The position numbers and the translations under genes were made by a program. Below the pieces are notes generated by a model. The model ran no database searches. It saw only the letters and a program-made list of their open reading frames with translations, and had not been told where the DNA came from. Below, in pieces: positions 4,812 through 17,960 of a stretch of 64,000 nucleotides of DNA (position 1 is the first letter of the stretch; each line of letters starts with the position of its first letter). This DNA comes from Membranipora membranacea (taxonomy: Eukaryota > Bryozoa > Gymnolaemata > Cheilostomatida > Membraniporidae): the NCBI GenBank assembly GCA_914767715.1, contig OU612069.1, forward strand, positions 19,591,387 through 19,655,386. The letters run 5' to 3'.

Positions 4812-7800
4812 TTTATTCTGTCTCTGCCGTTATGGTTAAGAAATATTGGTTTTGTAGTGCTAAAAAGTTACTAGTGATATAAAAGTCTGCACATTATAAA
4901 ATATTATCTTTTGTAGAAAACAGAGTTTAAAAATTTCACACATTGTGCTCTAAAGCATTTGATATTACAGTAGCGCCCTGATGGAAGCGTAGCTAGGGCT
5001 AATATTGGCTCATTGTCTGTTGCATACAGTTCTTAAAAAAGCTGGTAAAAACCTCACACAGTTATGGGACTTCACAGTCAGCTAAAAAGCTAGCAGTTGA
5101 TATAACATCATTAATGGAGTTGCGACATGTTTTGGATATATGGCCAAATAATGTACATAGATGATAAACAAAAACACATTCAATGAAAGTATAGTAACAT
5201 CGCATTCTGATTGGTTTAGAAATACCAAGAGAGGACAACTTCTTCATAATAAACAGGCGCTTACGAGCTTTCTTGATTACTGCCTCAGAATGTGCCTTAA
5301 AGCTCAACTTGTGGTTAGAGTAGTAATAGTGTATCTGAAAGACAGCGATTGTCTTGACGATCCAGCTTAGAGTTTATTAAACATTTATCCCAATCCCTGT
5401 AGAATTAAAAATTATGAAAAGTTCTGCTACATCTGTATTTGTGGGACACGTCAGTTCCTCTGGTGACTGAGTTATATTGAGGCTTCCCGGTCAGTGTAGC
5501 ACAGTGTTTTGAGATACAGTGTTTCTATGTAACCCAGATACTAGCCAATTTGTGGGCTCTCATATGATTGGCTGTTGAGCTGTTGGGCCAATCAGAGCGA
5601 ACACATTGGCTTCTTGGATACCAAATATCTTAGACTACACGAGACCCCAATTTCCTAAAGCTTCTTTCCTGAAGCACAGTGGTTTAAGCCACCAAATGCT
5701 GTACACAGTTCAACACTCACTTAAATATATCATTGTTATTTCTTATTGCAGCTGGCTTCCCCCGTTGATGCAGATAAGAAGGACTCTGATGATTATGACA
5801 ACGTCATGAGGTCAGCACCCGTCGAAGAGTCAGCAGCAGATGTTGATGACCTGCTCAGTGGACTCAGCTTACAGAGTGAGTTAGTTTAGCTGCCCATATG
5901 TTGATTGGGTTAATGGTCATAGCATTTCATTATCAAACGCATTCGTGGGAATGGCAATTTGGTTTATAATGAAATGCTATGACCATGAATACATAGTTTA
6001 CGTACATGTTATACTGAAAATAATGAGTGACATGGACGATAGAGTGCGATGGCACTTGCTGATCAAGTTTGGAAGCCGACAGAACGGTCACCCGAACAGG
6101 ACAACGGCTGCATAGGTGCGAAAGGTGCAAAACTTAAAATAATATAAAAACATGAGTGATGAGTAATTGTTCATATCTTCTCACAGGTTTGCTGCCTCTT
6201 CTAAGTACAAGATGTAAAGATGGACAGGATGGCACGGATGGGATAAATGGCCTTAATGGAAGAGACGGTGATGATGGTGAAGACGGGAGAGATGGTGAAG
6301 ACGGGAGAGATGGCACGGATGGTTTAAATGGAGTCAACGGAATCAATGGGAAAGATGGTGAGTAGTTATAGATCAGAAACTGATATGTGTCTTTTGTGCA
6401 AAAGTATTGGTGAATTAAAAGAAAGCTTTATGAGCTTGCAAGTTCTTTGTTATTCCATTGAAGATATACCATTAAATACATCTGTTTATATTTGATTGTG
6501 TGTTGCAGGTAAAGATGGGTTAGATGGAGGCCCCGGCTTAAAAGGTGAGCCTGGTGTACCTGGTGTTGAAGGTCCTCCCGGACCACCCGGCAACTCTACA
6601 GAAGGAGAACCTGGACAGCCTGGTGTAAAAGGGCCGAGAGGACAGACAGGTGCTAGAGGGCTTACAGGGCCTGCGGGGCCGACTGGTGGACAAGGGCTGA
6701 AGGGGTCGACTGGCACACAGGGGTCGACTGGACCAAGAGGATCACCAGGATTTGCAGCTCAGGCTCAAGTAGTGTACACTAGATGGGGCAGAACTTCCTG
6801 TGCTGGAGGGTCTTCTCTCATATATCAAGGTGATTATGATAAGATCTCATATATGTTTGATTGTGATAGTGGGATATTACGCTCGAAAGAACAAATAGTC
6901 AATAAACATTACCTAATATGATGCCTCAGGGGCTGAGACCTTGCGGTTCTTGTGAACCCATAGTGAGTCTTGTCCCTAAATACTGGACTGGATCTCACTA
7001 GAAATCTGAGAATCAGTTACATGTATCCCATCTTCCAGCTGTTGTCTGCAAAAAAGAATCCATATTTGATTGAATAAAGATAACCAAACCTTAACAGCTG
7101 GAAGTTAATGAAATAGATTTATAATAAAATGTAATTATAGTAAATTTATCATATTAACAGGTTTTGCTGCAGGGACAGACTATAGTAAAAAAGGAGGCGG
7201 CGTTAACTATCAATGCATGCCTCTAAAACCTGAATACAACACATACAGTAATAGTGGTCAGTCTAGCGTGCTATCTGGTGCAGAGTATGAATCAGGAAAT
7301 ATTGGGCTATTCTCAAGTAATGTTCAAAATTATAATGTGCCCTGTGCAAGATGCCTCGCCCCGAGGTCAGCTGTGATGATGTACCCGGCTAGTAGAACGT
7401 GTCCAACAGGCTGGAGTAAAGAATATGAAGGTAAGAAGTATACTGAGTACTGATGTTAGCAAATGTTAAACTTACTCTACATGATAGAATATACACCCCA
7501 AAAAAGGATTAATACGCCAAAAATTTACAACTTCTCCCAAAGTGTCTATTCTTCATAAGGGAAGTTTACCATCAGAGTTGACCTGGGAATATAAGCATTT
7601 ATTCATAAGCAAATCTTCAATTCACCAGACTTGCTATAGTAAGGTGTGAGTCCTCTGCTTGTCGCTAATCCAACTCTGACCTCAGCAAAGGCTGTATCTT
7701 TGATTTAATCAGATATTATTTATCTAAGCTTTCACGCTAATTATTTCCTAATGGTACGTACAAGATATACTGTATTTGTATTTATCAGGCTATCTGATGT

Positions 7801-8009: not shown

Positions 8010-8073
8010 TTACTGAATCTTGCAATACTGTAGCCTTAAAGATTATCTAGCAGGATAATCTGGGGGGCTAACC

Positions 8074-8079
8074 AATAAA
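8074..8079 (+). terminator. poly(A) signal of the collagen gene
   Basis: AATAAA lies 65 bases after the stop codon, the first such signal downstream. Confidence 0.6.
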
Positions 8080-8291
8080 AACACCTTGTGCAGAAGAGTC
8101 TTTTACATACCCCTGTGGATTTTCATAGCTTTCAGTGCACTTGGGGGCCCATGGCATGTTCTCAAGCACAACCATGTCTAGCAGCACTCACAAAAACATT
8201 CACCAGCTGTGCATAGAAAGCTCTGACGTATGTTATTTCCTGTTTACATTCCAATATAAGGAATGTGATCACGTGATATAATGATTTACAA

Positions 8292-9206
8292 CACACTGAT
8301 CACGTGATATACTATTGCATGTATATCTCTGATCGATAGAGAGTGAATTAATTCATTTAGCTTGAGTGCAGCTGAAATTCAGTATTTAGGAGACGTATGG
8401 ATGATTACCCAAACTTTTGGATATACACATATCATTTTCTCATTCTTTGTTAAAATATTCTAATTTATATTTAGAAAATCTGATATCACCTTTTAACAGC
8501 TTTAGAAGAGCATTTAGCACATGTTTTTGACAAGAAAAGTGACATCGAAACTGTGTATTGCTAGCCTAAGCTCAGAAGAGAGAACTAACAATGCAGAGCT
8601 AGGTAATGCTGTTTCGATCATGTCTGTTTGATAAAAATTAAAGTTGTCCTCTCTTTCAGCCAAATGTAGGTGCTCAATATTTGCGACAGAAGCTCTATCG
8701 ATCAGCACACTGATTTCGAGATTACACTATTAGTATGTGTATCTCTGATCGATAGAGCTTCTGTCGCAAATATTGAGCACCTACATTTGGCTAAAAAAGA
8801 GGACAACTTTAATTTTATCAAACAGACATGATCGAAACATATTTTCCTAGCTCTGCATTATTAGTTCTCTCTTCTGAGCTTAGGCTAGCAATACACAGTT
8901 TCGATGTCACTTTTCTTGTCAATAACATGTGTTAAATGCTCTTCTAAAACTGTTAGAAGATGATATCAGATTTTCTGAATATAAATTAGAATATTTTAAC
9001 AAAGAATGAGAAAATGATAAGTGTATATCCAAAAGTTTGGGTAATCATCCATACGTCTCCTAAATACTGAATTTCAGCTGCACTCAAGCTAAGTGAATTA
9101 ATTCACTCTCTATCGATCAGAGATATACATGCAATAGTACATCACGTGATCAGTGTGATCGATCAGAGATACACATACCAATAGTGTAATCTCGAAATCA
9201 GTGTGG
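8292..9206. mobile_element. foldback element, 413-base arms
   Basis: Arms 8,292-8,704 and 8,745-9,157 are near-identical reverse complements around a 40-base spacer. The spacer plus the start of the right arm (8,706-8,755) recurs inverted at about 9,155-9,206. The block can therefore be read as two head-to-head copies of a ~500-base MITE whose end begins CACACTGAT. There is no coding capacity. Confidence 0.85.
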
Positions 9207-9485
9207 ATTTACAATGTTTACAACAATGTTTACAATAACTGGTTAAATTCATGCTGTGGAATGTGTTGGAGTGATGGGGGCTGTAGTTGAAGCCCATCTT
9301 TATAATCTTAGCTCAATAGATTAATCAATACAGGCTCAGTTTTCTCACATATCCTCTTCAAAATATTATACCTGCACTCTAAACTTTCGCGCCATATTGG
9401 GAATTCTGGTTATATAGGTCAACTCTTTGACGTGTGAGGCACAATAATAGTAATCTTGACAAAAGAAAAATGCCTAGCAAGAGGA

Positions 9486-9494
9486 AATGTGTAG
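9486..9494. repeat. left copy of 9-bp target-site duplication
   Basis: AATGTGTAG directly precedes the transposon and recurs at 15,780-15,788. Nine bases is the usual size for Mutator-type insertions. It lies inside the THAP codons for KCV. Confidence 0.93.
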
Positions 9495-9506
9495 GTACAT
9501 AGATCA

Positions 9507-9543
9507 TTCGTACTTAGGACGATTCGTACGGACGTTTCGTACT
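9507..9543. promoter_or_regulatory. left terminal array of transposase-binding-type motifs
   Basis: Three TTCGTAC sites start at 9507, 9523 and 9536 (steps of 16 and 13). They mirror the right end. The role as transposase-binding sites is inferred from position, repetition and inversion. Confidence 0.75.
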
Positions 9544-10018
9544 TCCCAATTTTTTTCCATTTTTAAATATTTCATGATGGTACAACTCCTTATTAATTCC
9601 CGTAGGGACTTTCCTTGGGCCAATAATACAAGGGCCAAAAATTATTTTGCTATTTTCTTACATATATACTCATCAATGCCACTCAGAATTTGCTGAGGAT
9701 TCCAAATCTAACATCAGATTTTGTATAGTATAAACGCATCAAATTTAATCACTGTTTTTGTTGCCTCGCTCCATCTTTTTTAGCTTGATTATTTACTGCT
9801 TAGTCATAATTTACAAGTCATGTTGACGCAGTTACAAACAACACTTTCTTAGTTTTTCATATTTTGGATAGTCTTGTTATCTCACTGTAGCATAATATAC
9901 ATGCATAAACACTGATTGTCCAATAAACTTAAATATGATGATTAATAGCTCCGCAATTTTTCAACAATAAAATAAGCTATCAAGGTCTCATGTCACATAT
10001 CATTTCTGTATGTGTGTG

Positions 10019-10132
10019 GGTATGTATGTATGTATGTATGTATGTATGTATGTATGTATGTATGTATGTATGTATGTATGTATGTATGTATGTATGTATG
10101 TATGTATGTATGTATGTATGTATGTATGTATG
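10019..10132. repeat. ATGT tetranucleotide microsatellite
   Basis: About 28 uninterrupted copies of the tetranucleotide, inside the left non-coding part of the MULE. Confidence 0.95.
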
Positions 10133-10996
10133 ATTTAGTATTTATCTCATTCTCTGAGAAATAAAAGTGTTTATGTAGGGTGCTCTGGTAAAATATTTGT
10201 TATAAATATAATATGGTATAAAATTACTTCTGAAAAACACTGTTAATATAATGAATCGCATTGGCTCTAAAACATTTGGCACGTAGCTGGACCCAATATC
10301 TGATAGTTTGGTAGCAACCTGACATACATGCATTTTGAAACACAGTGATTAACAACAAGAAGTAGTATTACAAAACATCAAAAAACATAAAATCAATGAG
10401 AGACAGTAAAGTAAATCTCCAAGAAAATGACAGCTATGGCACTTTCATAAACCATTTTGACGTCTCTCTTGATCCTCCCCAGGTGAACTGATTCCCATTC
10501 AATTCTGGGAAAAGCAACAGTAGCGTCGTAGACATAATATCACCATGTTAGATACCTGCCTGTATCTAAAATACAGCACATGTTAATTGAACATAGAAAA
10601 TGAGGTAACACAAAGTGACACTTCATGCTTATGGAGTTGTTTGCTCATTTTACAGGAGAGGACAAAGAAGTAACAAAACATAAGATAAATATATTCGTAT
10701 GTACATATTTACAATACAATATTAACAATATTTAGAACAAAATGCAATATCATTTCAGCTGCAACACATGTAGATACTACATAGGGAAAATTAGTTATGC
10801 AACAACCCACTTTCATAGGAATGTCACTGCAGAGTTGTACTAAGGATGCAAGGAATCATTTCAGCCTGGATACCCTAATCCTCTAATTTTTCCCAGCAAT
10901 AAGTGTAATTAGGACTTTGTTTGAGCCAGGCTTTCAAAACTGGTTATCCAAAAGAGTTTGAGCACTTTCAGTGATTTCAGCTAGTCATTCATCATC

Positions 10997-13900
10997 ATGA
11001 GACCGAGACGAGCAGCCGCTAGACAGCGAGCTATTGATCATCCTTGCATCATTTGCGGACAATCCGTCAGTGCCAGAGAAGAGGCCGTCGCGTGTGATAA
11101 ATGCCACCTGTGGACACACAGGCGGCATATTGGTGAAACTATTACTCGAAAAACATACATAAACTCAGTACGATCAGACTTACCGATATCATACAAATGT
11201 GAACCCTGCAAACAAAGGTAGGTTTTCTCTGTTGAAAGTCACTTCCTCATAAACAATATCTACAATGATAAAGCATTCATTTCACATTGGCAATTGAGTT
11301 CATATTTTGTGAACTGATCAGAGCAAATCCAGTATGTCATCATTTCTAGTTTTAATTCACTGTCAATATTTCACCATTTCAGAGAAATGATGGAAGAGTG
11401 CGTAAAAGACCAGTCAAATGATGGCAACCAGGAGGCAGAAGCAAGGTATGTATTAGTTTACAATCATGCATAACTTGTTTCATTAAATAATGGACATACA
11501 GCTTTGAACAACTTAACTAAAATATGTTGTCTGAAAATTGGGATAGAAATTAAATTCACTGTCAATATTTCACCATTTCAGAGAAATGATGGAAGAGTGC
11601 GTAAAAGACCAGTCAAATGATGGCAACCAGGAGGCAGAAGCAAGGTATGTATTAGCTTACAATCATGCATAACTTGTTTAATTAAATAATGGACATACAG
11701 CTTTGAACAACTTAACTAAAATACGTTGTCTGAAAATTGGGATAGAAATTAAATTCACTGTCAATATTTCACCATTTCAGAGAAATGATGGAGGAGTGCG
11801 TAAAAGACCAGTCAAATGATGGCAACCAGGAGGCAGATGTAAGGTATGTATTAGCTTACAGTCATGCATAACTTGTTTCATGTAATAATGGACATACAGC
11901 TCTAGGCATTGAGCTTTGAGCAAAATACTATCAATAATTAAAGTTTTAATTTTTTGTTTGCAGCAAAGAGCTGGATGAGATCATGGCTGAAATTGCAGCT
12001 AACCTTTTTAGTGAATATGATGAACACTCCTATAGCATTGTCAGGTAAGTGAACAATATGTAATGTTGACAACAACCATTGACATAGCTTGTATATTATG
12101 TGACAAAATATGTCATATGCGGTAAATTATCACTGGATTACATCATCCTAATTGTAAAAAATGTTATTGGTTGGTTGTTTGTAGCGCATCTACATCCACT
12201 GAAAATGCTGCTCGATTCACAGAGGACGACGAGATAGAGGAGCCAAATATTATATCAGAGAAGTAAGTAGTCGCTACATAATCAGAAAACCAAACTAATT
12301 TTGAAGAGACAGCATTAATTGATATCCAATTATTTGATGTTTTTTTGATTAAAGGAGTTTCGAGGAGCCAACTGTGGATTTTGTTCCAACTAATATGGAG
12401 CCGGAACAATTTTCTTTGGTAAAGAATGGAAGCAAGCGGAGGAAGGACTTAGTTGTTTCGGATCTTGGATTCTCTTTTGGATTCAAAGTTAAGACTCATA
12501 AAGAAAGCATATGGACATGCACAGTCAGAAGGAAGGGATGTTACTGTCATGCTAGGTTATCTTTCAATGGTGAGAGATACAAAATGCTCGGAAGACATAT
12601 TCATGACGGACAGCCAGGGCTTCTTGCTAAAATCAACATCACAAAACAGGTAAAACTCTAGATCATTACAATATAAATTACAATTACAATTTTCTCCTTA
12701 TAACTAAACTGACGAGACTTGTCCTCTCTCTGTAGAGTGATTTATAACTGTGCACAATTCCAAATGATCGTTTTTGAATAATCTAGGCCAAGGAAAAAGG
12801 GATAGAAGACGTTCAGGTGGGAGCAAAAACTGTCGTGAATAAGATCATGCGGCAGGAACCAGCAAACTACATCTTACCAAGAAAGGAAAACGTTGCAAGG
12901 GCTGTTAACAGACATCGCCAGTCCCAGAGGCCACCTGATCCTGATTCAACCAGCTTCACAGTAAGTTAAAAGTTCCAAGAACGCATGTCATATTTTTAAT
13001 TACTGAAATTTCAAAGTCAATAAACCCCACCTTTTCATATATATTTCACATGCTGTTTAACTTCTTTTGTTTCAAAGCTCCTGGATGAGCACGTACCTTT
13101 GGATTTCCTCATCTCGGATATCAGTGTAGACAGTGTTGGTAGACATCTGGTATTCGCGACAGCAAAGCAGATGCAGCTGTTGGCAAAGGCAAAGTTGTGG
13201 TATGCCGATGGAACATTTGAGATAGTGAACAAGCCATTTCTCCAACTATACACAATCCATGCATTCATCAGGAAAGACGACGCACTAGTCCAGCGGCCTT
13301 TATTATTCATCCTCATGTCCAGGAGAAGATATCTGGATTACAAAAAGGTAAGCAAAATTTTAACTATATCTTAAATTTGAGACTATGTTTCATCTGTAAT
13401 TATGCCTGAATTGCCTACAAAAATTTGAAATAAAATACACTGGATTAGTAAAGTATGGGTTTCAAATTTTAGGTATTGCAGGATGTAATCGAGAAACTAC
13501 CAGAGGAGCCAGCAGTTCAGTCCATTGTGACAGACTTTGAAGCAGGTAATCGAAATTATACATATATCACTCAAATCATGAACTCTGAAAACAGCAATAT
13601 CTTTCTGGGTCAAATTTGGAGTGTAAAAATACCAAGAGATCCATTTTGCCACAGTTTGTATCAATGATGGAGACAAGAACAACAGATAACAGGTCATACA
13701 TTTGATTTTGCAGCATTTTGGAAGGCAGCGAGGGAGTTGCTACCTGGTGTGAAGATGAGAGGCTGCTCGTTTCACTGGAGCCAGGCAGTGGTACGACATA
13801 TGAAGGAACTCGGACTATTCAAGGCATTCAAATCTCTCGGACCAGCAAAGGACTTGCTTGACAAGGTGTTGGCACTGCAGTTCCTTCCAGCGAGTCATAT

Positions 13901-14559
13901 CGCAGGTAGGCTCTGAAACAAAGCAATAATATAACAGTAATGATTAATATTAGTCTACTAAGGTCACACTCCATATTCATCAATTAACGTGTAATGGAGC
14001 AATACTCGTTTTACAGGAGGCTTAAATTTCATCAGGACCATGACGACCGATCGAGTCATGGCTGAGCTTCTGGAATATGTCAATGACACTTGGTTGGGAA
14101 ACTGGGAGCCACAAGACTGGTCCCAGTATAGACACCTGATACGTACTAACAATGATGTGGAGGGGTGGCACAACGGGATTAAACACAGGTAATATGCATT
14201 GCCTTGTTCCGTGTCTAGCAAGAATTTTTTCATTTATAATCATTTTTGATCCATCGTAACCTTTAACTTCATGAATAGTTTATAATCCTCTTTTATCCTA
14301 CATTTTTTATTACTTTGACAGGTACGGTAAGAGAATAGGCCCTCTGCCATTTTACATGCTTCTGGCATCACTCTTTGATGAAGCCTGTGATCTGGACATG
14401 GATATGCGTTTAATGTGCGAAGGAAAGCTGGCCAAGGTAGTAACCAAAAGGACTGCCGCAAATAATGACCAGCTTGTACTAATATGGAATGCCTACAAGG
14501 ATGGCCATATAAGTGGTAACCAGCTGTTGGTCAAAACATCTAAGCTTGTTAAACGGTGA
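10997..14559 (+). CDS. MULE transposase with PHD-like and FLYWCH fingers, 13 exons
   Basis: Exons 10997-11217, 11383-11445, 11582-11644, 11781-11843, 11964-12044, 12185-12262, 12355-12649, 12787-12960, 13078-13347, 13473-13545, 13714-13905, 14017-14188 and 14322-14559 join in phase with no stop, giving about 660 residues. Residues ~18-72 are a PHD-like Cys/His finger (CIIC, CDKC, WTHRRH, CEPC). Residues ~74-136 are a 21-residue acidic segment present three times. Residues ~206-273 are a FLYWCH finger (FSLVKNG, WTCTVRRKGC, HIHDG). The DDE domain shows D390 (YADGTF), D457 (VTDFEA), the CSFH signature C478/H481 and E573 (NNDVEGWH). It probably binds the terminal repeats and carries out cut-and-paste transposition (family knowledge). 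All catalytic residues are present, so activity is plausible. Confidence 0.9.
11355..11930 (+). repeat. 199-bp tandem repeat carrying a triplicated 63-nt exon
   Basis: Three near-identical units lie 199 bases apart (exon starts 11383, 11582, 11781). Each includes its own acceptor, a 63-nt exon of phase 2-2 and a GTATGT donor, so any number of copies keeps the frame. The third exon ends ADV where the first two end AEA. The near identity of the intron parts shows the duplication is recent. Confidence 0.9.
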
Positions 14560-15304
14560 TGGAAGCAATATTTTTTATTATATTTATCATTTTAGTAACA
14601 GAGACAGAAAGGTGTACATCAATATTAGTTGAAAAAGTGAATGTTTTTAATAACTGTGCATGTATCTTAACCTCATTTTAGTACTTGTCTACAGAATTTT
14701 AGCAAAATTTTATCACAATTCATGGTTTATTTTTATATTTTTTATAAATAGTTCCGTCCCAAGTTGGTTTTAGTATTTTAGTTCGGATATTGTTTCTGCA
14801 TTTTAGTACTTACACTTAACTTGTTTATACTGCTCAGAGTCAGCACAACCATGATGAGAACCTCATACCGAGTTTCTTCAAAATATATCAATTATCATTG
14901 GTAATCTGTGCCAAGTGTCATCCACAAGAACTCCTGAAAACAGTTGTCATATAGGGTAAATCGTAAAAGCGGTTGATTTGATATGGGATTTGAATATATG
15001 GCATTTCATTTCACACTATTTTAGTACTTACAGCATTTCTTAAGCATACCATTGATGCAACTGAGATACGGGATATGTCGACTTCCTTGTCAATAAATCG
15101 CTCACTGCGAATTCTGGGTTAAGAACTCCTGATAAATTGTCAGCAACCAGGGGATCACTCCTGAGATGCGACCTCTGAAAAATTGAAACATAGAGCTCTT
15201 ATTGTGAAGGTTTGAATATGGGGTTACACCAGGAACAAGGACTAGACTAGCAGGCCCAACCATAAACATGCACCCGAGGTCACCTGGGACAGCCAACGGA
15301 AAAT

Positions 15305-15412
15305 AAATTGTTCTCAAGCCAGAGGGACTCAACTTGAGCAAGCCCCAGTTAGTAGCCATATTATAGCTACAAACTAGGGCTTGATCCAGTTGAGTTCCTC
15401 TGGATTGAGAAC
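15305..15412. repeat. long hairpin in the 3' part of the MULE
   Basis: The segment starting TTGTTCTCAAGCCAGAGG pairs with CCTCTGGATTGAGAACAA ending near 15,412, around a short AT-rich loop. A second, smaller hairpin (AATGAACTAAAC and its complement) sits at ~15,625-15,654. Both lie between the transposase stop and the right end, and may be structural or nested MITE remains. Confidence 0.6.
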
Positions 15413-15713
15413 AATTACTTCTTGGGAGAATGAGACTTAGGTATTTGTTTACTCCTTGCTTTAACATCTAGACTGGGTGTATGAACAAGGAGTAAATTGG
15501 TATGAATATAACATGGATGTTTATGTGTACAATAACAATAAGACTGTCTTACCAAATTTCAGTTGGAAGAGCTTGTGTCTGGTTTCCACACATGAGTCAT
15601 GACTAGTGTAGTATGTAAAAGCAATGAACTAAACTAAAGGTTTAGTTCATTGGTAAAAGTATCTCCCTCACTCATGTGAATAAATGTATCTGCGCCTGCG
15701 CATTTGTACAGGA

Positions 15714-15766
15714 AGTACGAACTGACTTTAGTACGAACTGGAAGTACGAATGTGCACAAGTACGAA
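15714..15766. promoter_or_regulatory. right terminal array of transposase-binding-type motifs
   Basis: Four AGTACGAA sites start at 15714, 15730, 15743 and 15759 (steps 16, 13, 16). Read inward from the right end, the order matches the left array in inverse orientation. Confidence 0.78.
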
Positions 15767-15779
15767 ACGACATAGATTC

Positions 15780-15788
15780 AATGTGTAG
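15780..15788. repeat. right copy of 9-bp target-site duplication
   Basis: AATGTGTAG, identical to 9,486-9,494. The THAP reading frame resumes with GCT AAT TTG TGT directly after it. Confidence 0.93.
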
Positions 15789-17639
15789 CTAATTTGTGTC
15801 ACAGTGTACTGCACTTATATGCCTGGCCAGATGCCTCCAAATACCCTGCCCTGCATAGGAAGTGGTCCAACTGGGTGAAGGCAGATAACAATGACTTTCA
15901 TTACAGCAAAAACACAAGCTTTTTGTGCTGTAAACATTTCACTGATGAGGATTTTACCAACTCTTTCAGATATGCTTCAGGTGTTGATTCAAAGTAAGTA
16001 CTAAAGACTTCTACATGCCAATGATTTCATTTTATTCTGACATGCCACTTCATAACCATAAAGAGTGTGAGTCACACAGGTTGGCCATAAAGGGTATAGG
16101 AGAGGCAGAATTCAGCAGGGTGAATTTTTCACTAAAAGTAGCACCTGTCCTTTGTATATAAATAGATGGAAATTGTTGGATGGTACAACAGGTCTACTCC
16201 AAAACCCAGGGTATTTAGAGTAGACCTGTGGATGGTACAAATAAATAATAAAAGTGTAAAATAGATTGATAGGGACAAAAACACAGTCTGATCCTGACAA
16301 TTTGGCAGCTCAACTGACAGGTAACAGAAAGATAGCTAACCATGATAAATATGAAAGCGAATACAGCCCACATCTGAAGGAGGTTGTGGGAGATGATTCA
16401 ATGTATTATAATATGTAGGCCATGTATATGTATTCAACTATCATCTTCTAGCCTATGAAATTTGAATTTAGTCTTGGCAATTAAGTCTTGCAAAAGAAAT
16501 AGTTGTTGACTTTATTCTGTTGACTCATAATCATGGTTATTTCTTTTTTAGACTTAATATTGACAAAGAGAAGGCGGCCCCGTCAGTACGATTCATCAAC
16601 AAATACCGGTATAAGATTGGGAGACATAAAGACACCAAACTGGTCCCGACAGCTAATCTGGTCAAAGTGGAACCAACATAAGGTAAATTATAAAATTGTT
16701 GCATTTTAGCCAGATTCCGATACCTTTTACAGACACTGTTTGTCATATTAATTGATTGATTCAAATGGAAGTAAACTCGATCATGTAGGAAGGTAACTTA
16801 AGTCCATGTCACAACAAACACATCATTGATTTTCCACATAATTGCAGGGTATGTAGCAGAGCTCATGGAGCTACTAGAAGACTATCTTGCTGGAAACAAG
16901 AAACCAATTTTCCAACCCAAGCAGCCGCCTACACTGTACAGCAAAGCCCCTCAAGAGGCTAGGGAAACGACAATCGCAAAATGCATGGAAAGCTCAAGAG
17001 GATTCAGTAGGAAAAGAAAATTAGACGGATAATGTTTATTTTTTGAATATCTTTCAGTATATTGTATGTTTTGAAGATGGATTAATGGATTATCGAATTC
17101 CTTATCCTGTTATCCGAGTCGATAAAAGTATAAAATATGTGACATTACAACAATACCATATCTGGATTGTCAAACATGATGATAATTGGCTAATGTTGTG
17201 TGTTACATAACAAAAGGTAACATCCAAAGACGGTAGTTGGCAGTGAGTCTAAGAGAAAAATATAAATTCAATGAAAATAACCTGCCTGTAGGGATGGAAT
17301 CTCCCTTAGGACATATTAAAAACGTAAAAGACCAATGTGTGTGTTGCTAAGAAAATGATGCACAGTTTAGGCTACATGGAGGAGGGCAGGTAGGTATTAG
17401 GTTTATTTTACATCCTCTATCACAATTATGCGACAAAACTGAATGCTTTGAGAGCTGTTTGGCATTTAAAAATTATTGTAAATAGATGAAACTGTTGTTC
17501 CGAGACATCATAAAGTAATTGATAAAAACTATGGCACCATCCGCAGATACAGAAGAGAGAGAGGAACATAATATTGCCTAACAACAGACTTACATGGAAG
17601 AAAGTTAACTTCTAGTGTACATTATTAACTAGAAGAGTG

Positions 17640-17960
17640 TCATACATTTTCGGCATCACCGTAACAAAAACCCTTGAACTGATAGTCCGCATATACTTCT
17701 TCATCCTCTGATGGTGGTATTTTATTGCGAATGTAATTCACAAGGCAGGATGGCAGCGGTTTCCTCTCTCCCTTCTGTATCGCTTGAAAAATCCAGAATG
17801 TCATATTTCTGTAAGCACATAAACGTTTACGAGCATTCCCAGCCGGTTCCACAGTATTAGCTGCATACTGCAGTATGATTTCATTCACTGGCTTTAAGCC
17901 AAAGAAAATGTTTCTCATTGTTCTGATTTCAGCTGACCCAATTGAACTTCCCCTTATCAT
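17640..17960 (-). CDS. P2X7 receptor C-terminal (ballast) type domain, stand-alone
   Basis: Minus-strand frame of 106 residues. RLCAYRNMTFWIFQ, LPSCLVNYIR, KIPPSEDEEVY and the final YQFKGF follow the order of the conserved C-terminal cytoplasmic domain of P2X7 receptors, where Cys residues bind zinc and the fold binds guanine nucleotides in the mammalian protein. No channel domain is visible nearby. Such stand-alone domains are frequent in invertebrate genomes, often near mobile DNA. The start (MIRGSS) is uncertain because an upstream exon could exist above 17,960. Function here is unknown. Confidence 0.62.
   Translation of the reverse strand: MIRGSSIGSAEIRTMRNIFFGLKPVNEIILQYAANTVEPAGNARKRLCAYRNMTFWIFQAIQKGERKPLPSCLVNYIRNKIPPSEDEEVYADYQFKGFCYGDAENV

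Follow-up and report, generated by a model that had tools for sequence, protein, structure and literature searches.

A MULE in a THAP exon of Membranipora membranacea: a probable nested pair of DNA transposons

A stretch of 64,000 nucleotides from the genome of the bryozoan Membranipora membranacea (C5:19591387-19655386, read on the forward strand and here called the window) carries a THAP zinc-finger exon that is interrupted by a Mutator-like element (MULE). Such a locus raises the question whether a transposon has broken a host gene, as had been claimed in an earlier note on this DNA, or whether the broken gene is itself part of mobile DNA. The comparison of the locus with other places in the same genome (339.3 Mb in 18 contigs were searched, and all genome-wide counts are lower bounds) makes us confident that a young MULE inserted, with an 8-bp duplication, into the THAP exon of a Kolobok-like DNA transposon near its start codon, so that the two form a nested pair. 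This provides a clean and datable case of a DNA transposon within a DNA transposon, with the empty sites in one and the same genome, and it shows how mobile DNA can pass for a broken zinc-finger gene of the host.

Ends and target-site duplication of the MULE

The MULE spans 6286 bp on the plus strand (9494-15779) with the termini GGTACATAG...GACATAGATTC, and both ends match those of 13 other genomic copies. The element had been described as complete with exact ends, which holds in so far as it is full length and its ends recur in other copies, but its start lies one base earlier, at 9494 and not at 9495. The final 220 bases of the MULE, used as a query against the genome, gave at least 45 matches; 18 of them, counting the window, reach the last base, and 22 correspond to a short inner piece. 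Of 18 loci retrieved around right-end copies, the 13 in which both ends could be mapped were counted together with the window as 14 copies; L030, L032, L033, L035 and L036 were left out of the duplication count because the match lacked one of the ends or because of rearrangement. A G precedes GTACAT at the start of 13 of these 14 copies, with an A in the remaining one, and the target-site duplication of 8 bp is exact in nine copies, agrees in seven of eight bases in three and is absent in two.

Because 13 of 14 copies begin with this additional G and the duplication measures 8 bp, the element was delimited at 9494-15779 and its duplication as AATGTGTA (left copy 9486-9493, right copy 15780-15787, both on the plus strand). 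A duplication of 9 bp had been proposed before and was rejected on the grounds of this family-wide count. The nine-base string AATGTGTAG does have exactly two occurrences in the window, both on the plus strand and starting at 9486 and 15780, but the ninth matching G is a coincidence: on the left it is the initial base of the MULE, and on the right (15788) it belongs to the target. A match of nine bases at two fixed places arose in 1 of 400,000 simulated pairs, whereas a common 9-mer anywhere within two windows of 60 nt turned up in 1.3% of simulations; among 8229 real pairs of such windows with a distance of 6285 bases, it was seen in 154. The 64-kb window holds three equal 9-mers at a spacing of exactly 6294 bases, AATGTGTAG among them.

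The left inverted repeat of the MULE (9494-9543, plus strand) is imperfect and contains the motif TTCGTAC at 9507, 9523 and 9536; the right one (15713-15779, minus strand) contains it four times, as GTACGAA, at 15715, 15731, 15744 and 15760. When both ends are compared in register, 30 of 50 end bases are identical, and the first three repeats lie equidistant from both ends once the G at 9494 is counted. Eight copies of TTCGTAC were observed on both strands of the window versus 2.95 expected, seven of them at the two MULE ends. A genome search with the pair of end motifs yielded 24 forward and 10 reverse matches, as compared with 13 and 8 when the pattern was reversed as a control; many of these 34 matches overlap at one and the same end. 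With a MULE domain, a duplication within the range of 8-11 bp and terminal inverted repeats, the element has the features of its superfamily. By analogy with other members, its transposase would bind the TTCGTAC repeats at both ends, which are putative binding sites, and would cut the MULE out and join it to the target with a stagger of 8 bp in a cut-and-paste manner; filling in of the stagger would then give rise to the 8-bp duplication.

Two further repeats were seen close to the right end. An inverted repeat of 55 bp (87% identity, arms 1 nt apart) lies at 15306-15416 in the 3' region of the MULE. A short piece at about 15607-15675 is also found at many other genomic places and accounts for 22 of the 45 right-end matches; part of it (TAGTTCATTGGTAAAAG) looks by eye like the A box of a transfer RNA (tRNA), and we take it to be possibly a fragment of a short interspersed nuclear element.

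The interrupted THAP gene and the unit that carries it

The MULE splits off the start codon and the first codons of the THAP gene. Exon 1 is divided into a left part encoding MPSKRKCV (9470-9493) and a right part (15788-15993), followed by exon 2 (16552-16682) and exon 3 (16848-17032), all on the plus strand; exon 3 continues the phase of exon 2 and stays open as far as its stop. Removal of the MULE and one duplicate gives an exon 1 of 230 nt that is open throughout, and together with exon 2 it matches the Pfam THAP profile (PF05485) with 24.4 bits at a cut-off of 23.9. The earlier reading of a rejoined THAP frame with CX4C ligands and no stop is thereby supported for exon 1 only. The right-hand fragment alone reads CVANLC and scores 23.6 bits versus 23.4 for the rejoined exon 1; the CX4C pair needs no rejoining because the duplicated bases, which encode Cys-Val, carry the codon of the first ligand. 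In addition, exon 2 contains an in-frame TAA. Searches with the rejoined protein gave no match at E <= 0.001 among 22 candidates from the protein database and none at E <= 1 among solved structures.

The same protein led to two uninterrupted versions of the exon in the genome, one at C5:6720257 (copy A, 95%) and one at C2:5311284 (copy B, 93%). The left part of exon 1 is identical in copy A and differs by one substitution in copy B, and the DNA of both copies (C5:6.72 Mb and C2:5.31 Mb) is gapless across the MULE insertion point. Identity of the window target to A and B is mostly 98-100%, with one stretch of 150 bases at 93%. At their borders both copies have inverted repeats of about 206 bp (96% alike), with TTAA on either side, and the sequences that flank A, B and the window copy differ, as seen on the left. 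Copy A measures 5.7 kb; copy B measures 11.7 kb, with about 6.4 kb in the middle that are absent from A. Beyond these three places, the inverted repeat has three more genomic matches of 95-96% identity and 32, mostly shorter, of 71-83%. The window copy itself lies on the plus strand at 8036-17850, with TTAA at 8036-8039, the element starting at 8040 and the match to the other copies ending at 17850. Its left inverted repeat (8040-8241; about 206 bp with the TTAA) has no right partner that could be found in the window.

The interrupted gene is thus most likely part of a second DNA transposon and not a host gene, judging from the structure of the copies: TTAA stands on both sides of A and B, the two copies of which both ends were read, and the THAP match, although marginal, is in place. 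The first assumption, that a functional THAP gene of the host was disrupted by the MULE, is very improbable. The exon open across the junction and the THAP profile match would agree with it, but the exon lies in a dispersed, multi-copy unit with inverted repeats of about 206 bp and TTAA flanks, and the window copy is otherwise defective. Within its exon 2, about 0.4 kb in comparison with A and 6.9 kb in comparison with B are missing (junction at 16596/16597), which probably reflects a deletion in the window copy. A private TAA (16679-16681) stands where A and B both have TAC, and past 17850 there is neither a match to A or B nor a right inverted repeat. An intact host gene was rejected in view of the paralogous transposon units, the defect in exon 2 and the TAA, and the MULE probably destroyed no ordinary host gene. 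With transposon DNA as its target, the insertion presumably cost the host little, and a young transposon nested in another is an ordinary phenomenon.

Splicing of the MULE as an intron, with the THAP frame kept in the messenger RNA, is extremely unlikely. The geometry resembles that of introners, as a GT-AG splice from the donor G|GTACAT at the start of the MULE (9494/9495) to the acceptor TGTGTAG|, made up of the right duplicate and one further base (15788), would restore the exon exactly, and introners with their own 5' site and a target-derived 3' site are described in excerpts of PMC9860276. The acceptor, at 2.4 bits, lies inside the range of 13 comparison introns, two of which score lower. 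However, the donor reaches 3.2 bits, using general donor frequencies, which is below all 13 comparison introns (6.2-12.6 bits), and for this weakness the intron was rejected as the main explanation. Scores as high as those of the two sites are reached by 14-15% of all GT or AG dinucleotides of the window, the geometry would arise by chance in about 1 of 16 cases by our own estimate, and the transcript of what is a defective transposon would still run into the TAA of exon 2. An origin of the three THAP copies by segmental duplication of a gene of the host is extremely improbable, too, for although the identity of 98-100% extends across most of several kilobases, it ends at the inverted repeats, TTAA stands on both sides in A and B, the flanks are different and more copies of the repeat lie elsewhere in the genome.

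With the target read as a Kolobok-like transposon, copies A and B also allow an estimate of when the MULE arrived. It is absent from both relatives and therefore most likely arrived after the split from them. Among 2456 sites compared in all three copies, private substitutions amount to 6 in the window, 12 in A and 5 in B, so that the insertion most likely falls within the time in which the window branch changed by about 0.24%. This comparison is the best evidence for the age and indicates a recent insertion. A recent date had been claimed before and agrees with the uninterrupted paralogues and the few private substitutions, but the argument then given, an open frame on both sides, is not evidence of recency because the target is a defective, multi-copy transposon unit. 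Intactness alone bounds neutral decay at 0.9-1.5%, a weaker limit than that from the paralogues.

Further observations concern the Kolobok-like unit itself. The window copy contains a palindromic (foldback) insert at 8292-9205 with a 9-bp duplication of its own (GATTTACAA, 8283-8291 and 9206-9214), which is absent at the matching site of A and B. Another foldback element lies in copy A (C5:6724177-6724627) with the 9-bp duplication TTGAACAAG and is absent at the matching site of B; both foldback elements begin with CACACTGATC. A second gene seems to be located on the minus strand of the unit (VRPFRFEPSDDD, CTCGYC...CVCC; window about 17643-17850, copy B C2:5320021-5321719). A resemblance of its product to proteins annotated as P2X7-like was not supported in a search of solved structures.

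The transposase, its copies and its relatives

The transposase gene of the MULE (10997-14559, plus strand) consists of 13 exons encoding 660 amino acids, all 12 introns are GT-AG, and the stop is a TGA at 14557-14559. Its frame is uninterrupted over all exons, which confirms that the transposase is still open, and the protein may well be functional. Exon 1 (10997-11217) encodes a PHD finger that scores 25.2 bits as an exon alone and 18.4 in the whole protein (Pfam cut-off 24). Against solved structures, exon 1 matched Pygopus PHD chains with E 5.9e-5 when alignment A1 was the query, and with the exon alone the best PHD match had E 0.0022. Three tandem units of 199 bp follow (11351-11947, plus strand), each with one in-phase exon of 63 nt, the third being 78% like the first without gaps. 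Exon 7 (12355-12649, plus strand) holds a FLYWCH zinc finger with 25.9 bits for the exon alone and 22.1 for the whole protein (cut-off 23.6). The DDE-type transposase region is encoded by exons 9-12 (13078-14188, plus strand), and Pfam MULE (PF10551) matches residues 387-483 with 36.3 bits (E 8e-9, cut-off 27.6). D390, D457 and E573 are the likely catalytic triad, with C478/H481 in the same region; the DDE-like residues are invariant in a three-row alignment of the window protein with P0001 and P0002.

A second full-length copy on C2 (L019) differs from the window MULE by 75 mismatches in 6121 aligned sites (1.2%) and ten gaps. Its splice sites are unchanged and its aligned exons are open in frame, with 6 non-synonymous and 11 synonymous differences where a non-synonymous share of 76% would be expected (p = 4e-4). 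In place of three 199-bp units, L019 has about five as judged from a gap of 397 bases, which amounts to a change in exon copy number within the transposase gene. Moreover, ten short derivatives of about 2.4-2.7 kb have the MULE ends, and five of these (L022-L026) are 0.2-0.5% apart. The window MULE is a young element that is possibly still autonomous.

Some points weigh against the interpretation as a young MULE nested in a Kolobok-like transposon. The analysis concerns a single genome, so the empty sites in A and B are paralogous and not allelic. The THAP score of the target exceeds its cut-off only barely, and transposase-like pieces were recognised by eye in copy B, with no relevant Pfam match and no confirmation of the DDE and H2CH motifs of a Kolobok transposase; the name Kolobok-like rests on the TTAA, the inverted repeats and the THAP domain. 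In the comparison with L019, conservation of the exons does not significantly exceed that of the remaining MULE sequence (p = 0.08). Present activity of the MULE is possible, the signs for it, near-identical derivatives and the excess of synonymous differences, being indirect.

A search of the protein database with the whole transposase yielded two relatives among 7998 candidates scored, and residues 290-600 as a query yielded 30. Both PHD and FLYWCH were found in 4 of 12 relatives scanned (of 31), namely P0001, P0004 (Palaemon carinicauda), P0020 (Branchiostoma lanceolatum) and P0023, with PHD scores of 19.6-23.9 bits, all just under the cut-off of 24. As PHD, FLYWCH and MULE occur together in lancelet, shrimp and metagenome proteins, the architecture recurs in animal sequences and is not peculiar to the Membranipora genome. 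In P0029, another MULE relative, there is no PHD match, and the N-terminus carries an OTU protease domain (23.9 bits, cut-off 23.3). A tree that joined the window protein with 29 relatives, P0030 and P0031 having been excluded, gave it no definite position; on the 30 rows of this tree the PHD label changed five times without clustering, many rows being fragments that are unable to show a PHD finger. Relatives of the transposase were not confirmed in viral contigs (0 of 34 stretches fitting the pattern) or in prokaryote genomes (0 of 52). In the full-text articles searched, FLYWCH, PHD, transposase and MULE came together in PMC6446971 alone, and the combined architecture, with its uncommon chromatin-reader-like PHD finger, is the mildly new part that is worth a note.

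The window MULE sits behind the eighth codon of the target THAP gene. It is conceivable, though rather unlikely, that a widespread animal MULE lineage combines a histone-reader-type PHD finger with a DNA-binding FLYWCH domain and is steered by the PHD finger to chromatin near transcription starts. If the PHD finger does read chromatin, the choice of insertion sites by a Mutator-type element becomes testable.

Elsewhere in the window, a collagen-repeat exon (45.4 bits) was observed at 6496-7453, followed by an open stretch that presumably resembles the short-chain collagens of sponges and other invertebrates. The collagen match, genes rich in introns and the animal species among the transposase relatives are in keeping with an animal genome. 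Neither Rfam at gathering thresholds nor a tRNA scan gave a match in the window.

Comparison with known systems

Among animal MULEs, those of the Phantom type with FLYWCH, as far as covered by the sections of PMC6446971 considered here, share with the window element the MULE domain, FLYWCH, a duplication of 8-10 bp and inverted repeats. Unlike them, the window MULE has an N-terminal PHD finger, 13 exons and imperfect ends built of TTCGTAC repeats, and the likeness is one of features. According to Table 1 of the same work (Dupeyron et al. 2019, PMC6446971), the outgroup Rehavkus is the only group with a PHD finger, and FLYWCH is given for several others. Rehavkus (Table 1 and section 8) is similar in the PHD finger of its transposase and in its inverted repeats, whereas the window MULE differs in its duplication of 8 instead of 9 bp, its FLYWCH domain and its clear MULE-domain match. 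A minisatellite ahead of the right inverted repeat, a trait of Rehavkus, was sought with Tandem Repeats Finder, and no array was detected within 14721-15850; the right end of the MULE holds a two-copy repeat of 29 nt.

Muta of Aedes aegypti, going by excerpts of PMC5225508, resembles the window MULE in a duplication of 8-9 bp, short subterminal repeats and introns (Muta5). In contrast, inverted repeats of more than 100 bp are found in 12 of the 14 families of Muta, and those of the window MULE are imperfect and about 50 bp long. In a yeast assay reported there, a mosquito MULE produced duplications of 8 or 9 bp with no sequence preference.

For the target, the closest parallel considered is Kolobok XKol of Xenopus, as presented in parts of PMC6004289. 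The target gene is split into exons and reads AAPSVRF where XKol has its AVPTIF box, but the two agree in the TTAA duplication, ends starting with AG, a THAP domain and similar lengths.

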